Below are positions 14,001 through 63,413 of a stretch of 64,000 nt of DNA, in pieces. The position numbers and the translations under genes were made by a program. The stretch's first letter is position 1. Each line of letters begins with the position of its first letter. This DNA is from a virus. The notes below the pieces were generated by a model. That model worked only from the letters and a program-made list of their open reading frames with translations, searched no databases and had not been told where the DNA came from. The stretch spans positions 1 through 64,000 of IMG/VR virus record IMGVR_UViG_3300027779_001743; one strand, given 5' to 3'.

Positions 14001-17000
14001 AGAAACTGCTTCTTTACAAGGAAATGTTACGGCACTTGGAATTGCAACAGCTTCACTAAGTGGTTCAGTTGAAGACATAAACACTACAACAGGTTCATTA
14101 TTGGCAGCATCCGAATCAATGCAAACACAACTCGTATTAACATCAACGGGTATGGATTTAAAAAATGAAACGGGTGGAGTATTATCAAGTTTTGGATTAA
14201 GCACTAAATTATTTGGAAGTGCAAGTAACGCTACAGACTATGCAGAAATAAATCCAGACGGATTAATTATGGTAGCAAATAGTGAAACTGCAAGTATATT
14301 CAATGCAGGTGGAACAACAATTCAAGGTGGAACAGCCACTGCTTCACTTAATGCAGGTGGTTTAGCACTAATTTCCGCTGGAGTTACAGGTAGTTTATTT
14401 AGTGCAACTGGCGCAGAAATTTATGGGGCAGCTGATAAAAACGAAAGAATAACTATAAGTCCAGTTGGAGTATCATTAATAGCAAACAATGTAACAGGTA
14501 GTTTCATTGATGCTAATGGTATGGAAATTTATGGAGCAAGTGACAAAAAGGAAAGAGTATTAGTTAATTCCACTGGTGTAAGTATTTTAGCAAATGATAT
14601 TACTGGTAGTTCATTTACAAGCGCTACTTCAAGTATATTTGGTTCAAACGATAAACACGAACGAATAGAACTTGTTGGTGAGGGTATGAAAGTTTATCAA
14701 AACAATACACAAGTTGGAAGTTTTGGTTCAGACATAACACTTACGGGTGGAACACTAACTATACAAGGAACAGCGGGAACAATCGGAGATGATAAAATAA
14801 CCGTTGGTAGTGCAGCTATCGCAGCGTACGCAGCCAATGCAAAAGTTTTAGATATAGTTGACGCAAAAATTAATATCGGCCCAGCAGCAGTTGCTGGAAC
14901 AGCCGTAACGGGTAATGTAAGGGTTGAAGCAGGTAATGTTTACATTTATGGAGATGCTACTAATACATTTTCTCAAATGTCAAGTGCTGGATTAGAAGTT
15001 ACAGATGACGGAACTAAAATAGCTGTTTTTGCAGGAACAACCACTATCGGAAATACATCAGGACAACACATAAGTATTGATGCTAATTCCATAGATATAA
15101 AAACAGCAGCTAATGTTACGGTATTATCAGCATCTGCTGCCGGAATTTCTATGTCTGGTAGTATAAATGCCGGAGATGGAACAATAGGTGGATTCACAAT
15201 CAATAGCACCGAAATAAGTGCAAGTGGATTAGTATTAAAATCAGGTGGACAGATTACAGGTTCAAGTGTGCAATTAACTGGTGAGATAAATGCATCTACT
15301 GGAACAACAGCGACATCAATCACAGCAATAGGAGTAATAACAGGTTCATTAATCTTATCATCTTCCAATATTCAGTCGCAAACTACTGCACTTGGAGTTG
15401 CAACGGGTTCATTATTTACTTCAGCTACCGCACTTGGAGTTGCAACGGCATCTTTAAGTGGTGCAGTTGAAGCAACAAATACGGTTACAGGAGCATTATT
15501 AGAATCATCGGAATCGATGGCAACACAACTTGTATTAACTTCAACGGGTATGGATTTAAAAAACACTTCGGGTGGATTCCATACAAGTTTTGGTAAAAGT
15601 GTTAAAATGTTTGGAAGTGCTTCAAATGCATTACAAACAGCAAGTGCTAATGTAAATTATTCAGAAATATCACCAGACGGAATGATAATTGTTAATTCAA
15701 GCACAACTTCATCATTCTTCGGAGACGATGTAAGAATATATGGTGGAGCTATTTCATTCTTTAGTGGTAGTGTAACTGCAAGTTCATTTTCATCTTCTGC
15801 AGCAGGGTTTACCGCAAGTATATTCGGTTCGGCAGATAAAGAAGAAAGAGTAGAAGTAACAGACGAAGGTATGAAAGTATTTGCAGGTGACGCTCAAGTA
15901 TCGAGTTACGGAACAAATACAGTTCTTACTGGTGGAACAATAACATTAAGAAACTCTACTAATAATAATGATAAATTGGTTTTATCTGAAAATAGTATGG
16001 TGATATTCGACAACAATAATGAGGTCGCATCATTCGGAGCAAACACCGTATTAGAGGGTGGTACCGTAACAATTCAAAACACGACAAACAACAACGATAA
16101 AGTTGTATTGAGTGAAAATAAATTAGAAATATTTGACAACAATAATGTTGTGGCAGAATTTGCAGCAAACACCGTAATTGAAGGTGGAACAATTACATTA
16201 AGAAACACCACAAATAATAATGATAAATTGGTTTTATCTGAAAATAGTATGGTGATATTTGATAACAATAATGAGGTCGCATCATTCGGAGCAAATACCG
16301 TATTAGAAGGTGGAACCGTAACAATTAGAAATACCACAAATAACAACGATAAAGTAATATTAAGTCAAAATAAATTACAAGTATTTGATAACAATACTGA
16401 TGTAGCATCATTTGGAGCAATAACAAGAATTGGAGCTATAGCAAATAATCATATATCAATGAGTAGTGATGGACTTTCAATAAAAACCGCAGCCAATGTT
16501 ACGGTATTATCAGCATCAGCTGATGGAATTACAATGTCAGGTAGTATAACCGCTGGAGCAGGTAGTATTGGTGGTTGGGCTATATCTGACTCGGTCTTAA
16601 CATCAACAGTAGGTACAAAAATAATAACACTTGATACTGGTAATTCATTAATTAAAGTTCTTAGTGGTTCTGCAGCAGATGCGGATAGACACGCCGTAAT
16701 ATTAAATGGAGCAAAAGGAATTATTGAAGTTTCACAATCTGGAATTGGTATATTTGATACGGGTAGAAGTGAAACATTTACCAAAAATACAATTGTTGAA
16801 CCAGCAATATTTAAACCAAATCTTTCAGCTAGGGGGGATATTGTTTCATCATCAGTTGATGTTACCAGACCAGTTCCAACGATGGATAATCTAAGTGTAA
16901 TAAGTTCTTCTAAAATGAATAGATTGGAAACTCAACAATTCTTCCAAGATACGACAGCTGCAGGTGCAACACTACAAGATTCATTAACACCTTTCTTCTA

Positions 17001-45743: not shown

Positions 45744-47387
<1,644 letters not shown>

Positions 47388-47984: not shown

Positions 47985-48857
47985 ATGATAAAACTTAAAA
48001 ACATATTATTTGAAGCAAGCATAACAGGCCAAACCCAAAGTTCAGAAGAACTTGGTGGATATAAAGGTTTCTTTAAATTATCTGAAATGGAAAAGTATAA
48101 GAAGTGGATAAAGAAAACACTTCGTGTAGAATTAGTAGAGGGTGTTGATGACCCAGGAATATTGAAGGCAGTATTCTTAGCAGGTGGACCAGGTTCAGGT
48201 AAAACTTATATTGCAAAAGGATTATTCGGAATACCTGATAGAATTAATGTATCTCAAACAGGTATGAAAATGGTCAATTCAGATAAAGAATTAAAATACT
48301 TATTGAATAAGTTTGGATTCGGTACTGATTTAGATTCCTTACCAGATGAAGTATTTGCCAATTTAACAAACCCATCAGACCCAAAGTATAGTGGTTTGAG
48401 AAGTTTCGCAAAAGACTTAACGGGTCAAAGAAGAAAATTATATCAAAACGGAAGACTCGGTATGATTATTGACGGAACCGGCGATGAGTTTAATAAAATC
48501 TCAATGGAAAAGAGAGAATTGGAAGCAGTCGGATATGATTGCTATATGGTATTTGTTAATACATCATTAGATGTAGCACTTGAAAGAAATGAAAAACGAG
48601 ATAGAATATTACCAGAAAAGATTGTAAAAGATTCACACAAAGCAGTAACTCAGAATATGGGTGGATATCAAGGATTATTCGGTGGTAGTAACTTTATGAT
48701 AGTGGATAATAATAAAACACTAGATGAGGACGCAGCAACAAAAAGATTTAATATGTTGGTTAAACAAGGTATTGGAAAATTTATTAAAACACCGCTCAAG
48801 AATAAACGAGGTTTATCTTGGATTAGAAAAAATAAAATACTAAAAGGGAAAAAATAA
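47985..48857 (+). CDS. Zeta-toxin/polynucleotide-kinase-like P-loop enzyme with targeting-like N-terminus
   Basis: 290 residues. FLAGGPGSGKTYIAKGL is the Walker A loop, MVNSDKELKYLLNKFG and MIIDGTGDEF the lid and metal-site regions, and LERNEKRDR holds the Arg residues that grip phosphate. The fold family covers zeta toxins and nucleoside or polynucleotide kinases. The first residues, MIKLKNILFEASI, resemble T4 capsid-targeting peptides (as in internal protein III, cut after FIAE). They match the start of the HAD gene at 4272. With the ligase-like domain at 53400 onward this could be part of an end-healing set. Confidence 0.8.
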   Translation: MIKLKNILFEASITGQTQSSEELGGYKGFFKLSEMEKYKKWIKKTLRVELVEGVDDPGILKAVFLAGGPGSGKTYIAKGLFGIPDRINVSQTGMKMVNSDKELKYLLNKFGFGTDLDSLPDEVFANLTNPSDPKYSGLRSFAKDLTGQRRKLYQNGRLGMIIDGTGDEFNKISMEKRELEAVGYDCYMVFVNTSLDVALERNEKRDRILPEKIVKDSHKAVTQNMGGYQGLFGGSNFMIVDNNKTLDEDAATKRFNMLVKQGIGKFIKTPLKNKRGLSWIRKNKILKGKK

Positions 48858-49339
48858 TGTTAACATCATTTGACGAAATTATAGAAATAACTTTAGAACA
48901 CGAAGGTGGATATGTCCACGACCCAAAAGATTTAGGCGGAGAAACAAACTTCGGTGTAGCAAAAAGATTTTATCCAGATGTAGATATCAAAAATCTTACA
49001 AAGGAAGAAGCAACAGATATTTACAGAGCAGATTATTGGGACAAGAATAGAGTAGAAGAACTACCAGAACATCTTAGACATATATTTTTTGATATGTGTG
49101 TAAATCAAGGTAGAGGAACTGCAGTAAAGATTTTACAACGAGCGTGTGTAGCAAAAGGAGCCAACATAGCAATTGATGGGGGTATGGGTGCAGGAACAAT
49201 GAATGCAATCACCACATACAAACCTTCAGACGAAAGAGTTCGTTGTTATAGATTAAAATTTTATTACGATTTAGTAAATAAAAAACCCGAACAAGAACGA
49301 TTTTTGTTTGGATGGTTTAAACGAGCATTATCAGTATAG
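48857..49339 (+). CDS. Endolysin (glycoside hydrolase 108 type)
   Basis: 160 residues, start overlapping the upstream TAA. EHEGGYVHDPKDLGGETNFG is the catalytic signature of GH108 lysozymes, with Glu as acid; the C-terminal part with GGMGAGTMNAI resembles the attached peptidoglycan-binding region. It would cut peptidoglycan at lysis. No signal peptide is seen, so a holin or other export is needed. The surrounding genes are head-related, so a virion-associated role is also possible. Confidence 0.9.
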   Translation: MLTSFDEIIEITLEHEGGYVHDPKDLGGETNFGVAKRFYPDVDIKNLTKEEATDIYRADYWDKNRVEELPEHLRHIFFDMCVNQGRGTAVKILQRACVAKGANIAIDGGMGAGTMNAITTYKPSDERVRCYRLKFYYDLVNKKPEQERFLFGWFKRALSV

Positions 49340-50072: not shown

Positions 50073-50279
50073 ATGAGTTTAAAGTCATTAGTTAAAGAAG
50101 TAATCGCAGAAGAAAAGATAAATTTATTTGTTGAGAAGAACATTCCAACAAATCCAAGCAAGTGGTCTTATTACAAATCACAAGCTAAAAGTAAATTTGA
50201 TGTATATCCAAGTGCATATGCAAATGGTTGGGCAGCAAAAAAATATAAAGCCGCAGGTGGTGGTTGGAAGAAAGGATAG
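50073..50279 (+). CDS. Small basic protein with targeting-like N-terminus
   Basis: 68 residues. MSLKSLVKEVIAEEK looks like a capsid-targeting peptide with a Glu-ending site (VIAE). The rest contains SKWSYYKSQAKSKFDVYPSA, which is shared by a family of small phage proteins of unknown function. The gene starts 1 bp after the upstream stop and is probably a head-internal or DNA-binding protein. Confidence 0.6.
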   Translation: MSLKSLVKEVIAEEKINLFVEKNIPTNPSKWSYYKSQAKSKFDVYPSAYANGWAAKKYKAAGGGWKKG

Positions 50280-50283
50280 AACT

Positions 50284-50709
50284 ATGAATGAAGCATGTTG
50301 GGTAGGATTTAAACAAGTAGGAATGAAAGACAAGGGTGGTAGAAAAGTCCCTAATTGTGTAAAAGAAGAAATGGAAATCTTTTATGAAGTGGATGGAAAA
50401 GGACACGGATATACTTTTGAATATCTTAGATTGCCAGAAGATATCAATGAAGCAGAGTATCAAGGAAGAAAAGTAAAACTCGGTAAGCCAATGCAGGGCG
50501 ATATCAAAAAATTTAAAGTCTATGTTAAGAATCCAGCCGGTAATGTCGTAAAGGTAAACTTTGGACACGGTGGAACATCAGTAAAGGGTAAAGCAATGAG
50601 AATTAGAAAATCTAATCCTGACGCTCGTAAGAATTTTAGAGCAAGACACAATTGTGATACACCAGGTCCAAGACATAAAGCAAGATACTGGAGTTGTCGT
50701 AAATGGTAA
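50284..50709 (+). CDS. Conserved-looking basic protein, unknown
   Basis: 141 residues from the ATG at 50284 (AAAGGATAGAA before it); a longer overlapping frame would start inside the neighbouring gene. CWVGFKQVGMKDKGGRKVPNC lies near the N-terminus, and the C-terminal RKSNPDARKNFRARHNC with YWSCRKW is rich in Arg and Cys. A zinc-stabilised nucleic-acid-binding role is plausible. Not recognised by name. Confidence 0.55.
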   Translation: MNEACWVGFKQVGMKDKGGRKVPNCVKEEMEIFYEVDGKGHGYTFEYLRLPEDINEAEYQGRKVKLGKPMQGDIKKFKVYVKNPAGNVVKVNFGHGGTSVKGKAMRIRKSNPDARKNFRARHNCDTPGPRHKARYWSCRKW

Positions 50710-51071
50710 AGCTTAAAGACTTATTAAAAGAAGATGTAAAAATTCAAGTATCAAAGAAAGATGATGGGTATATTTACCAATGGAAAGAAGAAATGAAAGC
50801 AGGTAAATTTGACCCGAAAAATCCTACACTTGTAGTATCTGGTATGGGTTCATATGATTTGAAAACATTAAAAAGTAGTATTGCAGGACAATTATTAGAT
50901 TTATCAAAGAGATTAAAAAAAGGAGATGATATGGATGTTGATAATGTATATCATTTATTGATAAAGAACGATTCACTATTATATAAAGTAAAAGCTTTGA
51001 AAGATGTTCAAGATGAACTAAGAACATCAGTATGGAAAAGAAGAATTACAATCTATAAAAATAAGAGATAA
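50703..51071 (+). CDS. Unknown protein with targeting-like N-terminus
   Basis: 122 residues, overlapping the previous gene by 7 bp. The start MVKLKDLLKEDVK repeats the pattern of the genes at 4272 and 47985. The remainder, with KAGKFDPKNPTLVVSGMGSY, is mixed helix and strand with no known motif. It may be packaged in the head. Confidence 0.55.
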   Translation: MVKLKDLLKEDVKIQVSKKDDGYIYQWKEEMKAGKFDPKNPTLVVSGMGSYDLKTLKSSIAGQLLDLSKRLKKGDDMDVDNVYHLLIKNDSLLYKVKALKDVQDELRTSVWKRRITIYKNKR

Positions 51072-54000
51072 ATGTTGAAAAGTAAATTAACAGAATGGTT
51101 AGTTAGACCACTCATAAATGAGGTAGAATTACCAATCAAAGTTGGTGATACGGTCTTGATGGGTAGGTTTAAAAATAAAAAAGTTAAAGTCAAGTCAATC
51201 ACTTGGAACGAAAAGGGTGATTTACAAATCAACGGCAGACCTGCACTCAAATTCAGAATACCAACATCAGATAAAAAGTTATTACCACAAAAGAAAAGTG
51301 GAAAAGATTCAGCAGAACCAGATTCAGATAGAAAAGGTGTTGAAGATGAATATCCACATTACAAATTAAAAGAATCACCAGCAAAATTTCAATCAGTTCA
51401 TCTTACATCAACATTTGATTCATTGTTCGGTAGGTGGTATTCAAATCACGTTCCACTAACTACTAAATTTATGCAAAGTATATTGGGTAGAGAACGAGTA
51501 AGTGTATTTCACGTTGGTAATGCAGAACTATCCAGCGATGTAGAAAATGTTGGAAGAATTGTTGGTAAGAAAAGTGCACTATCCACATTCTCATCAGTAG
51601 ATAAAGGTGAGAAACTTGCAAAAGGACAAGGAATACAAACCAAAGGTGGTATCATATATGAATTAGAAGGAAGTTTGTTAGTAGCAAGTATACGAGATAT
51701 GCAAACACATCCAGACAAAACAGGTCGTAGATGGGTTTCACCAGAATATTTAGCAGGTAAAGGTGCTGGTATGAAAATGCATAATGAATTAAAAAAATTC
51801 GTCCAATCAAATAAAAGAACCCGCCGAGATTTTGACTCCATAATGGGTGAATTTGATATCGAAATTAGTAATCAAAATGATGACTTAGATTATTCAGACC
51901 CTAAACGCATCGGACACGAAGAACGAAGAGCAATAGTTAAAAAGGAAGGGAATAGAATAAAACGAGAGTGGATTGTTAAGTATATTAATTTTTGTATGAA
52001 AATGATGAAAAAATATGCACCACAAATCAAACGACATATATTGAGTCAAAAAGATAAACCATCAGAACACGGGTGGAACGAAATCATTGTAAATCAAATT
52101 AAAGTAAAAGATATTTTTATATTGAAGAGAGCGGTCAATTCCGCAGTCGAAAAGGCAGCTGAAAAAGTTGCAACAGGTCAAGTTACCGTAGGTTCACCAG
52201 CACAATTTAGAAAATGGTATAATGAACGAGGTGGTGTGATTAATGAAGAGTTTGGTGCACCAGCAGGAGTTATTCCTTCACCAAGTCGTAAAGCAGTGAA
52301 GAAAAACAAAACTGACAAATTATCTGGATATAAAAAGGTTGATGAAATCGCAGTAGATACAAGAGTTAAAAAGGTTGTAGCAATTTATCCAGGTAGATTC
52401 CAACCATTTGGCCCACATCACAAAAAAGTATTTGAGGCATTAAAGGGAAAATTTGATGAAGTATATATAGCAACATCAAACATACAAGGAATGCCAAGAC
52501 ACCCACTCAATTTTAATGAAAAGAAAAAACATATGATAAAAATGGGTATTCCTGGAAAAAATATAATTCAAGAGAAAAATCCATACAAAGCTGATATATT
52601 GAGAAAATTCGGAGATGATACAGCAGTAGTTTATGTAGTGGGTAAAAAAGACGCAGGTAGATTATCATCGGGAAAATATTTTAAAGATTTCAAATTTGCA
52701 GTAAAGAGAAAAGATTTAGTTGGATATCAAGATAATGGTTATGTTTACTCGGCACCACACCAAAAAGTTAGTGGTATATCAAGCGGAACAGAAATCAGAA
52801 ATCTATTAGGTAGTCCCAAGGTTGATGAAAAGAAAAGACAACAAATATTCAAACAAACATTTGGATACTTTGATAAGAAAACTTACGAAATGATGACTTC
52901 ACGATTCGGTAAGTTATTTGAATTTATTCAACAACCACAGATAAAAAAAATTATAAAAGAAGTTAGTGGATTTGGAACAAGTGTAAACGCAAGTGATATG
53001 TCAGATGAAGGTATGTATGATTTCTTTGGTTCATTGGATGATTACTTTAGAATATCACCAGAACACGCAAAAATATTAGGTTGGGAAGTTATTGATTTTC
53101 CAGTTAAAGATTCAGAAGATATGATGTTTACCATTATGGCAGACGATTATGAAAAGGATAGAGCAAAAACCGTAACATACGGAAAGACAATAAATCAAAA
53201 TAGAAAAAATACTGATTCGGTAGATAATCCATTTCCCAAATATAAAGAACTAATGATAAAGAATTTAAGTAATTTGAATTGGGAAATAGTTAAGTTCTTC
53301 GGAGAAAAATCAGTTAAAATTAAAGACTCACCAACAATTGATAAAAAAGATGTTGCAAAGGGTATTACACACATCAAGAAGATTCAAGAAGAATTTGCAC
53401 AAGAAGTTAACTTATTAATAGAAGGTGGAGCATACGGACATATGAATCATCCATTTGATGATAATAATTTGATGTTTTCAGACTTGAAGAACATAGTTAT
53501 TATAGGGTTAAATGGAAAGCTAAATCGAGAAGATAATGTTTCTGAAAAACTCGATGGACAAAACCTAATGATAAGTTGGGTTGATGGAAAGTTAAAGGCA
53601 GCACGAAACAATGGACACATTAAAAATCGTGGTGCAAGTGCATTAGACGCCAAAGGAATGGCAAGTAAATTCGCTGGACGAGGACAAATCAAGAAAGCAT
53701 TTTACGGAGCTATGGTAGATTTAGAAAAAGCAATAGGTTCTTTATCCGACGCACAAAAAGAAAAGGTATTTGGTAATGGAACCAAATGGATGAATTTAGA
53801 GGTTATATATCCACAAACAAGTAATATAATAGACTATGATGTTGCAGAGATTGTATTCCACGGAGCATTAGAATATGATGAAAGTGGGAAATCAATAGGA
53901 CAAGCAAAAGATAGTGCAAGAATTTTACAAGGTATGATTAAACAAGTAAATCAAAATATACAGAAAACATTTAAAATTTCAAGACCTAACTTTTTAAGCG

Positions 54001-54647
54001 TTCCAAAGTCACAAAACTTCGGTAAATTAAAGAGTCAGTTTATAGGTAAATTAAATAAATTACAATCTCGATATGGATTAAAAGATAGTGATAGATTAGG
54101 TATGTATCACGAATCATTTTGGAAAGAATATGTATTCAAAGCAGGTAAACAATTTAAAGTGAATATTAAACCAGACCAATTCGTTAAGTTGGTTAATCGT
54201 TGGGCATACTTTGATAAGTCTTATAAGATACCACAAATTAAGAAAGATTTTTCACAAAGTCAAGACTTTTTAAATTGGGTATTAGATACGGACAAAAAAA
54301 ATCATATGAGTATCTGGAAAGAAAATGTAAAACCATTTGAAATATTATTTTTTCAAGTTGGAGCAGAAATATTAAAAAATATACAAGGGTTTTTAGCAGT
54401 ATCACCCGACAAAGCAACACAAAAAATTAGACAAGATGTTATCAGTGCGATGAACGATTTAAGAAAACCTGGTAATGTAGAAAAGTTAAATAAGTTAAAA
54501 ATACAAATAGAAAAATTAGAAGCTATCGGTGGATTAAATTCAGTTGTCCCGAGTGAAGGTATCGTTTTCAAGTATAAAGGAAAGATATATAAGTTCACAG
54601 GAGCATTTGCACCAATTAATCAAATACTCGGTAGTTTAAGATTTTAA
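51072..54647 (+). CDS. Multi-enzyme (polyprotein-like) protein: possible ART-like part, NMNAT-like domain and KxDG ligase-like domain
   Basis: 1191 residues, starting directly after the upstream stop. Residues 1-17 (MLKSKLTEWLVRPLINE) look like a capsid-targeting peptide. Residues about 18-392 hold FHVGN, ALSTFSSVDKGEKLA and GRRWVSPEYL, a weak ADP-ribosyltransferase-like layout. Residues about 435-600 are a nucleotidyltransferase: PGRFQPFGPHHKK (His449, His450) and GISSGTEIRN. Residues about 805-1191 are a covalent nucleotidyltransferase: motif I SEKLDGQN (Lys826), WMNLEVIY (III), SEGIVFKYKGKIYKF (IV/V). Glu-ending sites VINE (392) and LLIE (784) separate the domains. Family membership is clear for the second and third domains, weak for the first. 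Confidence 0.7.
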   Translation: MLKSKLTEWLVRPLINEVELPIKVGDTVLMGRFKNKKVKVKSITWNEKGDLQINGRPALKFRIPTSDKKLLPQKKSGKDSAEPDSDRKGVEDEYPHYKLKESPAKFQSVHLTSTFDSLFGRWYSNHVPLTTKFMQSILGRERVSVFHVGNAELSSDVENVGRIVGKKSALSTFSSVDKGEKLAKGQGIQTKGGIIYELEGSLLVASIRDMQTHPDKTGRRWVSPEYLAGKGAGMKMHNELKKFVQSNKRTRRDFDSIMGEFDIEISNQNDDLDYSDPKRIGHEERRAIVKKEGNRIKREWIVKYINFCMKMMKKYAPQIKRHILSQKDKPSEHGWNEIIVNQIKVKDIFILKRAVNSAVEKAAEKVATGQVTVGSPAQFRKWYNERGGVINEEFGAPAGVIPSPSRKAVKKNKTDKLSGYKKVDEIAVDTRVKKVVAIYPGRFQPFGPHHKKVFEALKGKFDEVYIATSNIQGMPRHPLNFNEKKKHMIKMGIPGKNIIQEKNPYKADILRKFGDDTAVVYVVGKKDAGRLSSGKYFKDFKFAVKRKDLVGYQDNGYVYSAPHQKVSGISSGTEIRNLLGSPKVDEKKRQQIFKQTFGYFDKKTYEMMTSRFGKLFEFIQQPQIKKIIKEVSGFGTSVNASDMSDEGMYDFFGSLDDYFRISPEHAKILGWEVIDFPVKDSEDMMFTIMADDYEKDRAKTVTYGKTINQNRKNTDSVDNPFPKYKELMIKNLSNLNWEIVKFFGEKSVKIKDSPTIDKKDVAKGITHIKKIQEEFAQEVNLLIEGGAYGHMNHPFDDNNLMFSDLKNIVIIGLNGKLNREDNVSEKLDGQNLMISWVDGKLKAARNNGHIKNRGASALDAKGMASKFAGRGQIKKAFYGAMVDLEKAIGSLSDAQKEKVFGNGTKWMNLEVIYPQTSNIIDYDVAEIVFHGALEYDESGKSIGQAKDSARILQGMIKQVNQNIQKTFKISRPNFLSVPKSQNFGKLKSQFIGKLNKLQSRYGLKDSDRLGMYHESFWKEYVFKAGKQFKVNIKPDQFVKLVNRWAYFDKSYKIPQIKKDFSQSQDFLNWVLDTDKKNHMSIWKENVKPFEILFFQVGAEILKNIQGFLAVSPDKATQKIRQDVISAMNDLRKPGNVEKLNKLKIQIEKLEAIGGLNSVVPSEGIVFKYKGKIYKFTGAFAPINQILGSLRF

Positions 54648-59418: not shown

Positions 59419-60297
59419 ATGTCTTTAAATGTTAAACATAACAAGATAAAGAATACTGCTATTCTTTATGAATTACTATCTCGTCAAATAACAGCTGACG
59501 TGATAAATGATTCAAAAAGTCCTAAATCGGTGAAGATTTTCAAGGAATTCTTCAATAAAAATACCGAATTGGGTAAAGAATACGCACTTTATCAAGTTTT
59601 ACTTGAAAAAAAATACAAAAACGATTCTCATGCCGCAACATTAGTTGAAGCAGTGATTAAAAGTCGTAGAAAATTGTCTAATCGTCGATTAAACAGTGAA
59701 AAATTTAATCTAATTAAAACCATAAAAGAAAGTTATGATATAAAGGAGTTCTTTAATACTCGTTTACCTAATTTTAAAATTATGGCTTCAATTTATAAAG
59801 TTTTCGGAACAGAAACAGGTAAAGAAGACTTTGGTCCAGTTCAAAGAACAGATTCAGTCATTACTATAACTGAACATATCAGTCAGAATACTAATAAAAA
59901 AACTAAATCAAATAAACTTGTTGAGGATTACGCTCAACAAGATAAAGATTTGAGATTATTGAGTTATCAGTTATTAGTTGACAAATTTAATACAAAATAC
60001 AAATCTTTAAATGAAAGTCAAAGAAACTTATTGAAAGAATATATCAATAATGTATCTAATACTAATTCATTGAAAGAATTCATAGACAATGAAGTAATTA
60101 AAATTAAAAGAGCTTTAAAGAAATTATTACCAAATGTCAATGACAAGATTACAAAAATAAAATTAGCAGAAGCTATTGATTATACAGATAGCGCTACTAA
60201 GGGAAAAGTCGTGAAAGATAAACACGTGGTTGCTTTAATGAGATATTATGAACTAATTAAGGAAATTAAAAGTGTCCAAAGCACAAAAAATAGCTAG
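59419..60297 (+). CDS. Head-core candidate 1, unknown
   Basis: 292 residues, mainly helical and Lys/Asn-rich, with many Leu-Lys pairs (IKRALKKLLPNV, YELIKEIKSV). Position between portal and protease corresponds to T4 gp67/gp68, which build the prohead core. There is no sequence similarity that I can see. Its 3' end overlaps the next gene by 26 bp. Confidence 0.55.
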   Translation: MSLNVKHNKIKNTAILYELLSRQITADVINDSKSPKSVKIFKEFFNKNTELGKEYALYQVLLEKKYKNDSHAATLVEAVIKSRRKLSNRRLNSEKFNLIKTIKESYDIKEFFNTRLPNFKIMASIYKVFGTETGKEDFGPVQRTDSVITITEHISQNTNKKTKSNKLVEDYAQQDKDLRLLSYQLLVDKFNTKYKSLNESQRNLLKEYINNVSNTNSLKEFIDNEVIKIKRALKKLLPNVNDKITKIKLAEAIDYTDSATKGKVVKDKHVVALMRYYELIKEIKSVQSTKNS

Positions 60298-61369
60298 ACT
60301 CAAAGAAATTATACGAGAGTTAATTAAAAAGAACCTTGCAGAAGTTTCCACAACAGCAACAGCTGGTATTGATGGAACAGGAACAGGACATTACGATACA
60401 CCAAAAGCATTTGCAAGTTCTGCAAGTGGTTCACAAGGTGGTCATCCTAATCCAGATGTTCTTGGATATACAAAAGTAAATGAAGATGTAATTAACGAAT
60501 TCGTTAGTGTGGATAACTTCAACAAAGACTTTAATACAGCTATGAACTTAGTTATGAAACAGGCCAAAAATTTAAAAGGCCCATTAGCAAAGCACCCAAT
60601 CAAAAGAAATATCAACAAGTTAACTGCAGTTCAAAAACTATTCAATAAATTTATAGCACCAGCTCTTGTAAAAAAAGATAGAAGTTTAGGAAAAGGTTTT
60701 GATTTAACCAGAATAAAAAAAGAATTATCGGATGGTAAGTTTAAATCAGTCGTTCAATATTTAATAATGCCTCAAATTGGTGGTCAAAGTTACGATAGTA
60801 ATTCATTTTTTATGTTAGATGATAAAGAGAAAAAATTATTAGATAGAATATGGAGTGAATTAAAAAAACTAACAAACATTATGGACGACGCACAATTAGA
60901 ATCAGTAAATGAAGTTACTGATAAAGAAGTCAACGCATTAAAAAAATTCATAAGAGATTTTGATAAAATGCAAAAACAATATTGGAATATTGCTAAAATG
61001 GGTGACCAAGAAATGAAAAACCCAAAATACAATAAACATTACGAAACTATTTTAGCAGCTCAAAAATCAATCGTTGACCTTACAAGAACAATGCAAGGTT
61101 TAAAATCTATGGGTGAGGGTTTAAACGAAGGTCGTTATCACAATTGGAGAAATGACGAATCAATGACACCGAAACAAAAAATTGGTATATCGGTTAGAGA
61201 AGTTCGTGACGCATTGACCGAATTAGACAAAAGAATTAAAATGAATTTACAATTAAAGACAGAATTAAATATGGACGGAAGTGCATATTGGAAAAACACA
61301 CACAAAGCATTAACTAAAATTTCAGAAAGATTAGTTAAATTAGCAGGTAAAGTAGGAAATTTAAAGTAA
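60272..61369 (+). CDS. Head-core candidate 2, GTG start
   Basis: 365 residues from the GTG at 60272, seven bases after AAGGAA. A helical, basic first segment (SKAQKIARLKEIIRELIKKN) runs into LAEVSTTATAGIDGTGTGHY and YDTPKAFAS, a Gly/Ser/Thr linker. The remainder is Lys-rich and helical and has several Glu-ending sites (TKVNE, VINE, LESVNE, GLNE) that could be cut by the prohead protease. The position suggests a core or scaffold function. Confidence 0.55.
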   Translation: MSKAQKIARLKEIIRELIKKNLAEVSTTATAGIDGTGTGHYDTPKAFASSASGSQGGHPNPDVLGYTKVNEDVINEFVSVDNFNKDFNTAMNLVMKQAKNLKGPLAKHPIKRNINKLTAVQKLFNKFIAPALVKKDRSLGKGFDLTRIKKELSDGKFKSVVQYLIMPQIGGQSYDSNSFFMLDDKEKKLLDRIWSELKKLTNIMDDAQLESVNEVTDKEVNALKKFIRDFDKMQKQYWNIAKMGDQEMKNPKYNKHYETILAAQKSIVDLTRTMQGLKSMGEGLNEGRYHNWRNDESMTPKQKIGISVREVRDALTELDKRIKMNLQLKTELNMDGSAYWKNTHKALTKISERLVKLAGKVGNLK

Positions 61370-61980
61370 TGAAACAAGTAATAGTAGATTATATACCATT
61401 TAATATAACACCGCAACAGATTACTGAAGCGCTGAAAGAAAACAACGGAAAGTTAGTTGTTAAAGGTGTATTACAAAGAGCAGAAGCAAAAAATCAAAAC
61501 GGAAGAGTATATCCAAGAGAAATCTTGATGAGAGAGTCAAAAAGATATGATGAAAATTTTGTAAAACAAAATAGAGCACTCGGAGAACTTGACCATCCAG
61601 ATTCATCAGTAGTGAATTTAACAAATGTATCTCACAACATTACTGAAATGCACTTTGAGGGTGATAATTTATTAGGTACGGTAGAAATACTTACAACACC
61701 AAGTGGAAACATCTTAAAAGAATTATTTAAAAATGGTATTAAATTAGGTATCAGTTCAAGAGGATTGGGTAGTGTTGAACAAGTTAGAGAAGCAAATGGT
61801 GATGATGTAACTAAAGTCGGAGATGACTTTGAGTTAATTGCATTTGATTTCGTATCAAATCCATCTACACACGGAGCATTTTTATATCCGATGAATGAAT
61901 CAGTAGATAAACAAGGTAGAACTTGTGGTCAGTATTGTAAAGCAGAAGATATCATCAATCATATTATTAGAGGTGAGTAA
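61369..61980 (+). CDS. Prohead protease (T4 gp21-like)
   Basis: 203 residues, TAATG overlap at both ends. GELDHPDSS provides the catalytic His (His76), LGISSRGLGS the Ser (129/130) and AFDFVSNPS the Asp (160), as in the gp21 family. It cuts scaffold and capsid proteins after Glu in sites of the Leu/Ile-x-Glu type in T4. Its own N-terminal ITEALKE may be a self-processing site. Many proteins of this window carry matching sites, listed below. Confidence 0.92.
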   Translation: MKQVIVDYIPFNITPQQITEALKENNGKLVVKGVLQRAEAKNQNGRVYPREILMRESKRYDENFVKQNRALGELDHPDSSVVNLTNVSHNITEMHFEGDNLLGTVEILTTPSGNILKELFKNGIKLGISSRGLGSVEQVREANGDDVTKVGDDFELIAFDFVSNPSTHGAFLYPMNESVDKQGRTCGQYCKAEDIINHIIRGE

Positions 61981-63413
61981 TGCCAGCAGTTTCTAAGAAA
62001 CAGCAAAAATTTATGGGTATTGTTAGAGCAATACAAACAGGTGACGCAGACTCAAAGAATTTTACACCGAGAGTACAAGCAGTAGCCAAAGATATGAAAA
62101 AGAAAGATGTGAAAAAGTTCGCATCAACTAAACACAAGGGATTACCAATGAAAAAAGAGATGTTAGATAAGCTTAAAGAAATGGTTCGAGTAGAATTAGA
62201 ATCTTGTGGTTATACACATTCAGTTTCGGGTAAAAAACTTAAGTCATCTGGTGGAACTGGTCCAGAAGATAGGTATTTAAAAGAAATGTCAGACAAATCT
62301 AAAAAAATTATCAGTAAATTAGGTAAGAAAGAAAAAGAAATGTTTTCAACTATGGTTGATATGATGGGGTTTGACCAGGTAATGGCAGACTACAAAAAAG
62401 ATAAGAAAGCATTTAAACAAGCATTAGCAGATATGAGTGAAAACATCAATGAAAAAAAGAAAATGTTTCCACCATTGAAAATGACACCAAAACAAGCAAA
62501 AGAATATAAAAAGTTTATAGGATATGCAAAAATGGGAGTAGAATATCAAATAGATATGTCTTTGTTTGAATCAGTAAATGAAAGTATTTTAACAAAGCAA
62601 CTATCTAAAATGATTAATGAACCAGATAGTTCCATTGTCAAATTTATGAAAAAATCAGGATTGGATGAAGCATCTCTATTAGATTTTGTTGAAAAACTTA
62701 CAAGAAATAGTTCAAGTTTAAGAAAAAAACATATCCAAATTATGAAATCAGCAATTAAAGGTGATAAAAAATCAGAAAAATTTATAAATAAAACTCTATT
62801 TGGAGAATCAGTAAATGAAGCCCTTACAGGTGGAGATAGAAAAGTATTAATGGTAATCGGTAAAGAAATAAAAGATAATATCTTAAAGAAACATACAGGT
62901 GTTAAAGGACAACAATTAATGAAAGTAATTTCAAGTGTATTTATGTCTATGAGATTTACACCAGATAATATAAATTATAAAAACTTTAAAAAATACTTTC
63001 CAAAAAAATACAACGACAAGTTACTCAAAAGATTAGGTGATAAATTACAAGGTGAAAATGATTCAGTTAGACAAACATTTTTTAAGCAACTTGTTGGTGA
63101 ATCAGTAAATGAAGCCAGATTAGACCCAAAACAATTACTACAACAATTAGGTGGTAATAAATTTGTCGCAATGACAGGAGCAAAAAATCTCGCAGTCGAT
63201 AAGTCAAAAAATGAATTACATATGAAAATAGGTAGAAATTCAAAAAGTATATCACACGTTATCATTAGATTGACATCAGGAGATTTATACGATATGGAAT
63301 TTTTAAGTATTCGTGGGAGTTCAAGAAAAATTAAATCAAAAGAAAAAGGAGTTTATGCCGACCAATTAGGTAAAATGTTCAAAAAGAACACCGGTTTAGA
63401 CGTAAGATTATAA
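61980..63413 (+). CDS. Modular scaffold-position protein with DUF3008-like start and repeated ESVNE sites
   Basis: 477 residues. The first 55 residues (SKKQQKFMGIVRAIQTG, KKFASTKHKGLP) match the short DUF3008-type phage protein. The rest is Lys-rich, with the pentapeptide ESVNE three times, each before Ala or Ser: residues 197-201, 276-280 and 374-378; ENINE stands near 158. These resemble prohead-protease sites and divide the protein into blocks of about 40-100 residues. In T4 this slot holds the scaffold gp22. The last block has beta-like strands (HVIIRLTSGDLYDMEF). Confidence 0.65.
   Translation: MPAVSKKQQKFMGIVRAIQTGDADSKNFTPRVQAVAKDMKKKDVKKFASTKHKGLPMKKEMLDKLKEMVRVELESCGYTHSVSGKKLKSSGGTGPEDRYLKEMSDKSKKIISKLGKKEKEMFSTMVDMMGFDQVMADYKKDKKAFKQALADMSENINEKKKMFPPLKMTPKQAKEYKKFIGYAKMGVEYQIDMSLFESVNESILTKQLSKMINEPDSSIVKFMKKSGLDEASLLDFVEKLTRNSSSLRKKHIQIMKSAIKGDKKSEKFINKTLFGESVNEALTGGDRKVLMVIGKEIKDNILKKHTGVKGQQLMKVISSVFMSMRFTPDNINYKNFKKYFPKKYNDKLLKRLGDKLQGENDSVRQTFFKQLVGESVNEARLDPKQLLQQLGGNKFVAMTGAKNLAVDKSKNELHMKIGRNSKSISHVIIRLTSGDLYDMEFLSIRGSSRKIKSKEKGVYADQLGKMFKKNTGLDVRL

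Follow-up and report, generated by a model that had tools for sequence, protein, structure and literature searches.

The window analysed here is a stretch of 64,000 nucleotides (positions 1 to 64,000) within the 70,695-bp viral record IMGVR_UViG_3300027779_001743 of IMG/VR. It carries a gene for a modular polyprotein of 1191 residues and, downstream, the gene of a gp21-type prohead protease, the presumed processing enzyme (Table 1). As the original prediction stated, the polyprotein is encoded in one uninterrupted open reading frame (ORF); the protease gene, which that prediction placed about 7 kb downstream, lies at a distance of approximately 6.7 kb. The phage is marine and related to T4-type phages, and its gp23-like capsid protein possesses LIQE/ASVTGG at the expected maturation site (a slash marks the proposed cut). 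At the expected capsid maturation site of Flavobacterium phage immuto, a related phage, the sequence is IVSE/ANVTG, suggesting that Val is accepted at P3 in this phage group.

Table 1. The polyprotein gene, its modules, selected neighbours in the window and extra modules found in homologues (pLDDT, predicted local distance difference test)
Feature	Position	Strand	Residues	Description
Modular polyprotein gene	51072..54647	+	1-1191	single unbroken ORF, 1191 aa
Capsid-targeting-like leader	51072..51122	+	1-17	N-terminal, MLKSKLTEWLVRPLINE/
Module A	51123..51374	+	18-101	SH3/Tudor/KOW-like; end LKE/; AlphaFold2 model, Foldseek Tudor match, prob 0.82
Module B	51375..52247	+	102-392	~290 aa; end VINE/; fold model, stand-alone homologues
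Module C	52248..52346	+	393-425	predicted disordered linker, EFGAPAGVIPSPSRK..KKVDE/; pLDDT ~30
Module D	52347..52961	+	426-630	NMNAT/PPAT-type nucleotidylyltransferase fold; end IIKE/
Module E	52962..53423	+	631-784	poorly ordered, low-pLDDT stretches; end LLIE/; separate module in homologues
Module F	53424..54644	+	785-1191	KxDG covalent-nucleotidyltransferase (RNA-ligase-like); ~200-aa helical insert
gp21-type prohead protease	61369..61980	+		presumed processing enzyme; PF03420 (Peptidase_S77) E 2e-27; phrog_207 E 8.7e-54
P-loop kinase gene	47985..48857	+		leader MIKLKNILFE/, internal ELVE/GVDDPG; Zeta_toxin PF06414 E 7e-8
Small gene directly 5' of polyprotein gene	50703..51071	+		leader MVKLKDLLKE/
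CCA/poly(A)-polymerase-like module	homologues			PF01743 (PolyA_pol) E 8e-31
Nudix module	homologues			E 3e-16
PAP2 module	homologues			E 6e-10
HD module	homologues			E 2e-9
Putative Zn_protease module	homologues			PF05618 E 5e-8
C45/AAT Ntn hydrolase module	homologues			NF040521 E 1.3e-10; PF03417 E 4.7e-6

The leader is a short N-terminal peptide ending in L/I-x-E, as in the internal head proteins of T4, and LTEWLVKPxxNE was kept at the start of homologues irrespective of the module that followed. The predicted sites LINE, VINE and LLIE do end at residues 17, 392 and 784. The division into three blocks drawn from them proved too simple, since the mosaicism of homologues together with disordered stretches in the models points to extra borders at LKE101, VDE425 and IKE630, and thus to a leader followed by about six pieces. 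The first block is not one unit; it comprises modules A and B, and the second consists of a linker, the NMNAT-like domain and module E. The AlphaFold2 model of residues 18-392 (mean pLDDT 78) showed module A, disorder at approximately 73-111 and then module B, and the structure model of residues 393-1191 (mean pLDDT 76) showed disorder at 393-429, 634-650, 674-719 and 743-789. Thus, sites 101, 425 and 784 are predicted to lie in flexible linkers and sites 392 and 630 at linker edges, so that structure prediction across the proposed cuts placed disorder at or beside the borders. Stand-alone relatives of module A (L004, with the leader LMKFIKPFALFE/) and of module F (L003) were found, and module C was swapped as a unit among homologues.

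A tblastn search of 50,697 phage records identified four relatives: a 639-aa protein of Microcystis phage Mel-JY01 (WWT39297) that combines the NMNAT and ligase modules, with module starts predicted behind MGKLINILLSE/ and NNNIIAE/, two proteins of huge phages, and a fourth with module A only. In one of the huge phages the ligase is a protein of its own, 421 aa long, that starts with MKFLKSYEEFLNE/NLILE/GGSYGH. The whole protein matched 57 loci in IMG/VR; further, profile searches found module B in 31 loci and at least 562 and 558 relatives of modules D and F, respectively, so that homologues occur in more than 500 viral contigs of marine origin. When profiles of modules A, B, D, E and F were laid on all ORFs of 237 loci, 28 module arrangements were observed in complete ORFs, including the permuted orders D-x-AE-x-F and EDAF as well as single-module genes. 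Extra modules (Table 1) sat between the profiled ones with xE sites on their flanks, and the kinase, a separate gene in the window, was part of the polyprotein elsewhere. Where the flanking sequence left room, a terminase gene lay downstream in 135 of 136 loci (median distance, 1.2 kb) and a prohead protease gene in 10 of 12. Two further inserts were seen by eye: a ParB-like one had no Pfam match, and a second one resembling ADP-ribosyltransferases (ARTs) had only a weak Pfam match to Peptidase_M28. In addition, an ORF of L130 carries at residues 764-1177 an insert of approximately 330 aa between modules E and F, with weak Pfam matches only.

The borders of exchanged modules coincided with the motif [ILVM]xE. 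When a module was separate in one phage and fused in another, it began with the same first residue, placed after either the xE of a leader or an internal xE. Stand-alone module B genes (L066, L073, L076 and L080) started with MIKLKDLLKE/ or MIKLKDLLNE/, more distant ones with MVKLKDLINE/, and the leader of the small gene directly 5' of the polyprotein gene is of this type. All 27 distinct non-empty 8-mers upstream of the kinase module ended in [ILVMF]xE, whether the module was separate (KLSELLHE/G) or embedded (FDNENVNE/G). The same ending was present in 52 of 56 distinct contexts upstream of the ligase module, and D-E junctions contained a site in 77 of 77 cases (40 expected by shuffling). 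Breakpoints first defined as the ends of high-scoring segment pairs were noisy (45% within 8 residues of a motif vs 19% of random positions) and were replaced by a sharper definition. Of 1,325 sharp breakpoints, 32% lay within 2 residues of [ILVM]xE compared with 6% of random positions (z 44). [ILVM]xD and [ILVM]xK showed no excess, and other controls containing E were 1.3-1.6-fold enriched. Relative to shuffled sequences, [ILVM]xE was enriched 1.45-fold in linkers (z 13.4), occurred at 0.67-fold in module interiors and at 1.12-fold in the phage's own non-head proteins, which served as the control. Because the loci are related, these z-scores overstate independence, and the counts of distinct contexts are the safer evidence.

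The NMNAT-like motifs that had been noted in module D, PGRFQPFGPHH and SSGTEIR, fit the cytidylyltransferase-like superfamily: PF01467 matched residues 438-577 above its cutoff (E 2.9e-4). Foldseek matched the model to NMNAT/PPAT (prob 1.00), a profile search matched archaeal NMNAT (E 1e-3), and SGTxxR, the C-terminal motif of the ISSTxxR type, was present in 112 of 112 distinct D modules. Module D thus shares the fold, GRFQPF and SGTxxR with archaeal or NadM-type NMN adenylyltransferases and differs from them at HxGH. The three motifs by which module F had been placed in the KxDG superfamily (SEKLDGQN, WMNLEVIY and SEGIVFKYKG) were invariant or nearly so among 139 homologous modules. Motif I, EK[LT]DG with the nucleophile Lys, was found in 139 of 139, and motifs III, IV and V (WMNLEVIY, SEGIVFKYKG/IYKFTG) in nearly all. 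PF09414 (RNA_ligase) matched 8 of 11 module F members (best, 8e-4), and Foldseek matched the ligase 3qwu (prob 0.69). Module F shares KxDG, motif III, EGxVF and YKFTG with Rnl2-type RNA ligases and differs from them in that a long helical insert precedes motif IV and in its score below the cutoff.

Searches of Pfam and PHROGs gave no confident match for modules B and E, and a weak one for module F. The earlier suggestion that the first block might be ART-like was not confirmed. Module B keeps FH..STF..NE, an order compatible with the R/H-STS-ExE triad, and neither Pfam, PHROGs, a PDB profile search, Foldseek (PDB and viral) nor profile-profile comparison supported the assignment. Comparison by hhalign with the YRGM/ART-like array of Agrobacterium phage Atu_ph07 gave nothing usable and had little power, the sequences being few and similar. 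Matches to LSm4 (E 0.007) were discarded because they cover an unrelated stretch.

A C45/Ntn hydrolase module, not part of the window protein, was present in L160, L206, L110, L030, L128, L129 and L196. Ntn hydrolases of the C45 family require a free N-terminal Cys. In all five distinct contexts, this Cys directly followed an xE (VDE/C, IDE/C, MHE/C and IHE/C), and the match to NF040521 of NCBIfam began at model position 101, indicating that the usual C45 propeptide is absent. On the simplest reading of these sequences, the head protease would replace the autoproteolysis of cellular C45 relatives; alternatively, the module may cleave itself at Glu-Cys.

We propose that the polyprotein is a chain of head cargo that is cut by the gp21-type prohead protease into the leader and about six further pieces, and we assign this a probability of roughly 0.7. 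The N-terminal peptide ending in LINE/ would work as a T4-like capsid-targeting sequence (CTS) and bring the chain into the prohead core. The protease encoded downstream would then cut after the Glu of [ILVM]-x-E in flexible linkers, at residues 17, 101, 392, 425, 630 and 784, releasing within the capsid the SH3-like protein, module B, the NMNAT-like nucleotidylyltransferase, module E and the RNA-ligase-like enzyme, which would be ejected along with the DNA. The cut sites would also serve as exchange points, at which modules could be added, dropped, reordered, fused or kept separate with a leader of their own. The purpose may be early protection of the RNA and NAD state of the host against defence. 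Cleaved (t)RNA could be repaired by the ligase, kinase and CCA-transferase-like modules, and NAD or ADP-ribose handled by the NMNAT-like, Nudix and ART-like modules; both functions are plausible.

Several points weigh against this proposal. The window protein contains 16 [ILVM]xE motifs compared with 15.8 in shuffled sequences, and 10 strict [IL]xE compared with 9.2. With counts at chance level, the window sequence alone does not support the argument for cutting at three sites; the separation by a gp21-type protease that had been proposed is nevertheless likely from the shuffling of modules at [ILVM]xE in homologues and from the equivalence of leader and internal sites. By the sharper definition, no more than about half of the breakpoints (49% vs 11% of random positions) lay within 4 residues of the motif. 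Four of the 56 ligase contexts read LLLM/GG, a site was missing from both A-F junctions and from two of the four D-A junctions, and L002 had lost the site. Several xE sites lie inside predicted folded domains and would need shielding. With respect to the enzymes, the HxGH catalytic signature of NMNATs reads GPHH in the window protein; among the 112 D modules GxHH was present in 95, GPHH in 88 and the canonical form in approximately 11. NAD production by module D is therefore uncertain, and of the NAD-making activity originally envisaged the NMNAT fold is the part that holds. Module F scored 16.5 bits against the curated PF09414 cutoff of 27. Further, we infer packaging, cutting, ejection, the enzymatic activities and their purpose from genes, and that presence in the virion and cutting have this basis counts against the proposal as well.

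In T4, gp21 recognises L/I-X-E and cleaves behind the Glu; cargo reaches the core by means of its leader, proteins of the core are broken into several fragments, and Alt is among the cargo that is ejected (PMC9026906). Packaging of ARTs and Nudix proteins into heads has also been described (PMC9503650). The internal head proteins of T4 (IPI, IPII, IPIII and Alt) share with the window protein a leader ending in L/I-x-E, a gp21-type protease, the neighbourhood of head genes (PMC9026906, PMC3012670) and the expected delivery with DNA, which for the window protein we infer from gene position and leader. They differ in being single cargo with terminal propeptides, whereas the window chain holds several different enzymes with sites at each border. 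In SPN3US and phiKZ, head proteins are cut by a gp21-related protease (gp245 and gp175) and many ejection proteins are packaged; the SPN3US cuts identified by mass spectrometry take off propeptides, either N-terminal ones or, in the protease itself, the C-terminal one (PMC10052503), and do not separate enzymes. Our search of open-licence papers found no published swappable multi-enzyme polyprotein cut by a prohead protease.

That SPN3US pattern of propeptide removal fits an alternative in which the chain is injected whole, as a polyvalent protein from which the leader alone is removed, the internal xE being remnants of fusions between CTS-tagged genes. The window protein unites at least two domains of unlike biochemistry in a single chain, is mosaic and is presumed to be injected at the start of infection, all of which it has in common with the polyvalent proteins that phages and conjugative elements encode (Iyer et al. 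2017, PMC5512222). Polyvalent proteins with 2-15 domains are known, some packaged unprocessed (PMC5512222). An xE at every junction is also what gene fusion alone would leave behind if the fused genes had leaders. However, the motif has been kept and has not decayed: the residues preceding it differ entirely while [ILVMF]xE persists, as in the 27 kinase contexts, and it is depleted in module interiors. The Cys that the C45 module needs at its free N-terminus stands exactly past the site, and gp21 of T4 is known to divide core proteins into several pieces (PMC9026906). We therefore consider an intact chain unlikely. A zincin metallopeptidase domain, frequent in polyvalent proteins, not required there and proposed to process them (PMC5512222), distinguishes them further from the window family, which has prohead-protease sites at its borders and single genes with leaders. 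NMNAT was looked for in the text of PMC5512222, with no mention found.

This zincin theme, together with the autoproteolysis of C45 enzymes given in the NF040521 description, would favour processing by a protease module (C45 or another) or else by a host protease, instead of gp21. Such processing is hardly to be expected here, as a Pfam search of the window protein found no peptidase family, zincin metallopeptidases included, and the same motif occurs at the leader, at module borders and at the maturation site of the capsid protein. The position of the gene in the head cluster ahead of the terminase, the loss of cut-up core proteins in T4 (PMC9026906) and the change to GPHH would also suit a scaffold or core protein of the prohead, whose fragments are mostly expelled and whose enzyme domains were exapted as bulk, inactive as cargo. 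However, the nucleophile Lys of the ligase is invariant, the inserted modules are recognisable enzymes (PolyA_pol, NUDIX, PAP2 and HD), and the wide variation of the module set fits a structural role poorly; we regard a scaffold as distinctly improbable.

Cutting of the chain by the prohead protease may extend beyond this phage. We see an even chance that in an abundant marine group of T4-like phages the prohead protease is a general splitter of swappable cartridges of early enzymes inside the capsid, which in some phages also exposes the Cys of the C45 module and thereby activates it. If so, the proteolysis of capsid maturation would be, beyond a structural step, a route by which one gene delivers many separate enzymes. 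With the [ILVM]xE/ grammar, injected proteins that lack annotation in marine and jumbo phages could be found and split into their parts by a simple rule, and which proteins phages inject, and why, would become testable through virion N-terminomics.

Other genes of the head region share these features. In the window phage, the leader pattern MxxKLKDLLxE was found in five head-region genes, including the small gene next to the polyprotein gene, and in none of 49 non-head ORFs. The genes on either side of the protease gene, at 60272-61369 and 61980-63413, carry repeated ESVNE/ or xVNE/ motifs (LFESVNE/S, LFGESVNE/A, LVGESVNE/A and LESVNE/V) and appear to be of the same bead-and-cut design; the latter begins with DUF3008 (PF11450). 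Past the end of the window, at G000 65399-66707 (L063:2000-3308), three adjacent small genes start with MIKLKDILNE/, MAKLKDLVKE/ and MKLKDLLSE/ and, judged by these starts, probably encode further capsid-targeted cargo.

Cultured phages carry comparable genes. Besides Mel-JY01, they include Pelagibacter phage HTVC008M, in which AGE60463 reads MIPFILKE/GLYDPG. In Flavobacterium phage immuto_2-6A (gp079 and gp088; L240:7132-9855 and 14007-16532), a 907-aa protein containing an NMNAT and an 841-aa protein with multiple xNE/ are encoded 5' of the terminase and possibly represent the same system with other modules. Phage Atu_ph07 (L242:39484-48752) offers an independent case and possesses at least eight genes with YRG[MI] motifs, each starting with M[KR]WxQL[NT]E/, which are ART-like by eye and have no Pfam family. 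One member of this array, gp53 (AUZ94865), is joined through VTE/GVNDKHIF to the kinase module described above (Zeta_toxin, 1.5e-14). According to PMC6102473, 29 proteins of coding sequences 31-76 were detected in virions; gp53 falls inside this range by gene position.

Three further ORFs were noted in the window. Residues ~52-84 (ACWVGFKQVGMKDKGGRKVPNCV) of the product of 50128-50709 match short stretches in many otherwise unlike PHROG families, suggesting a widespread small module that is possibly cargo too. By eye, a full-length GroEL-like chaperonin ORF of 542 aa (45759-47387) lies just 5' of the head region, and a short muramidase-like ORF (48857-49339; EHEGGYVHDPKDLGGETNFGVAKRFYP) lies amid the leader-bearing genes.

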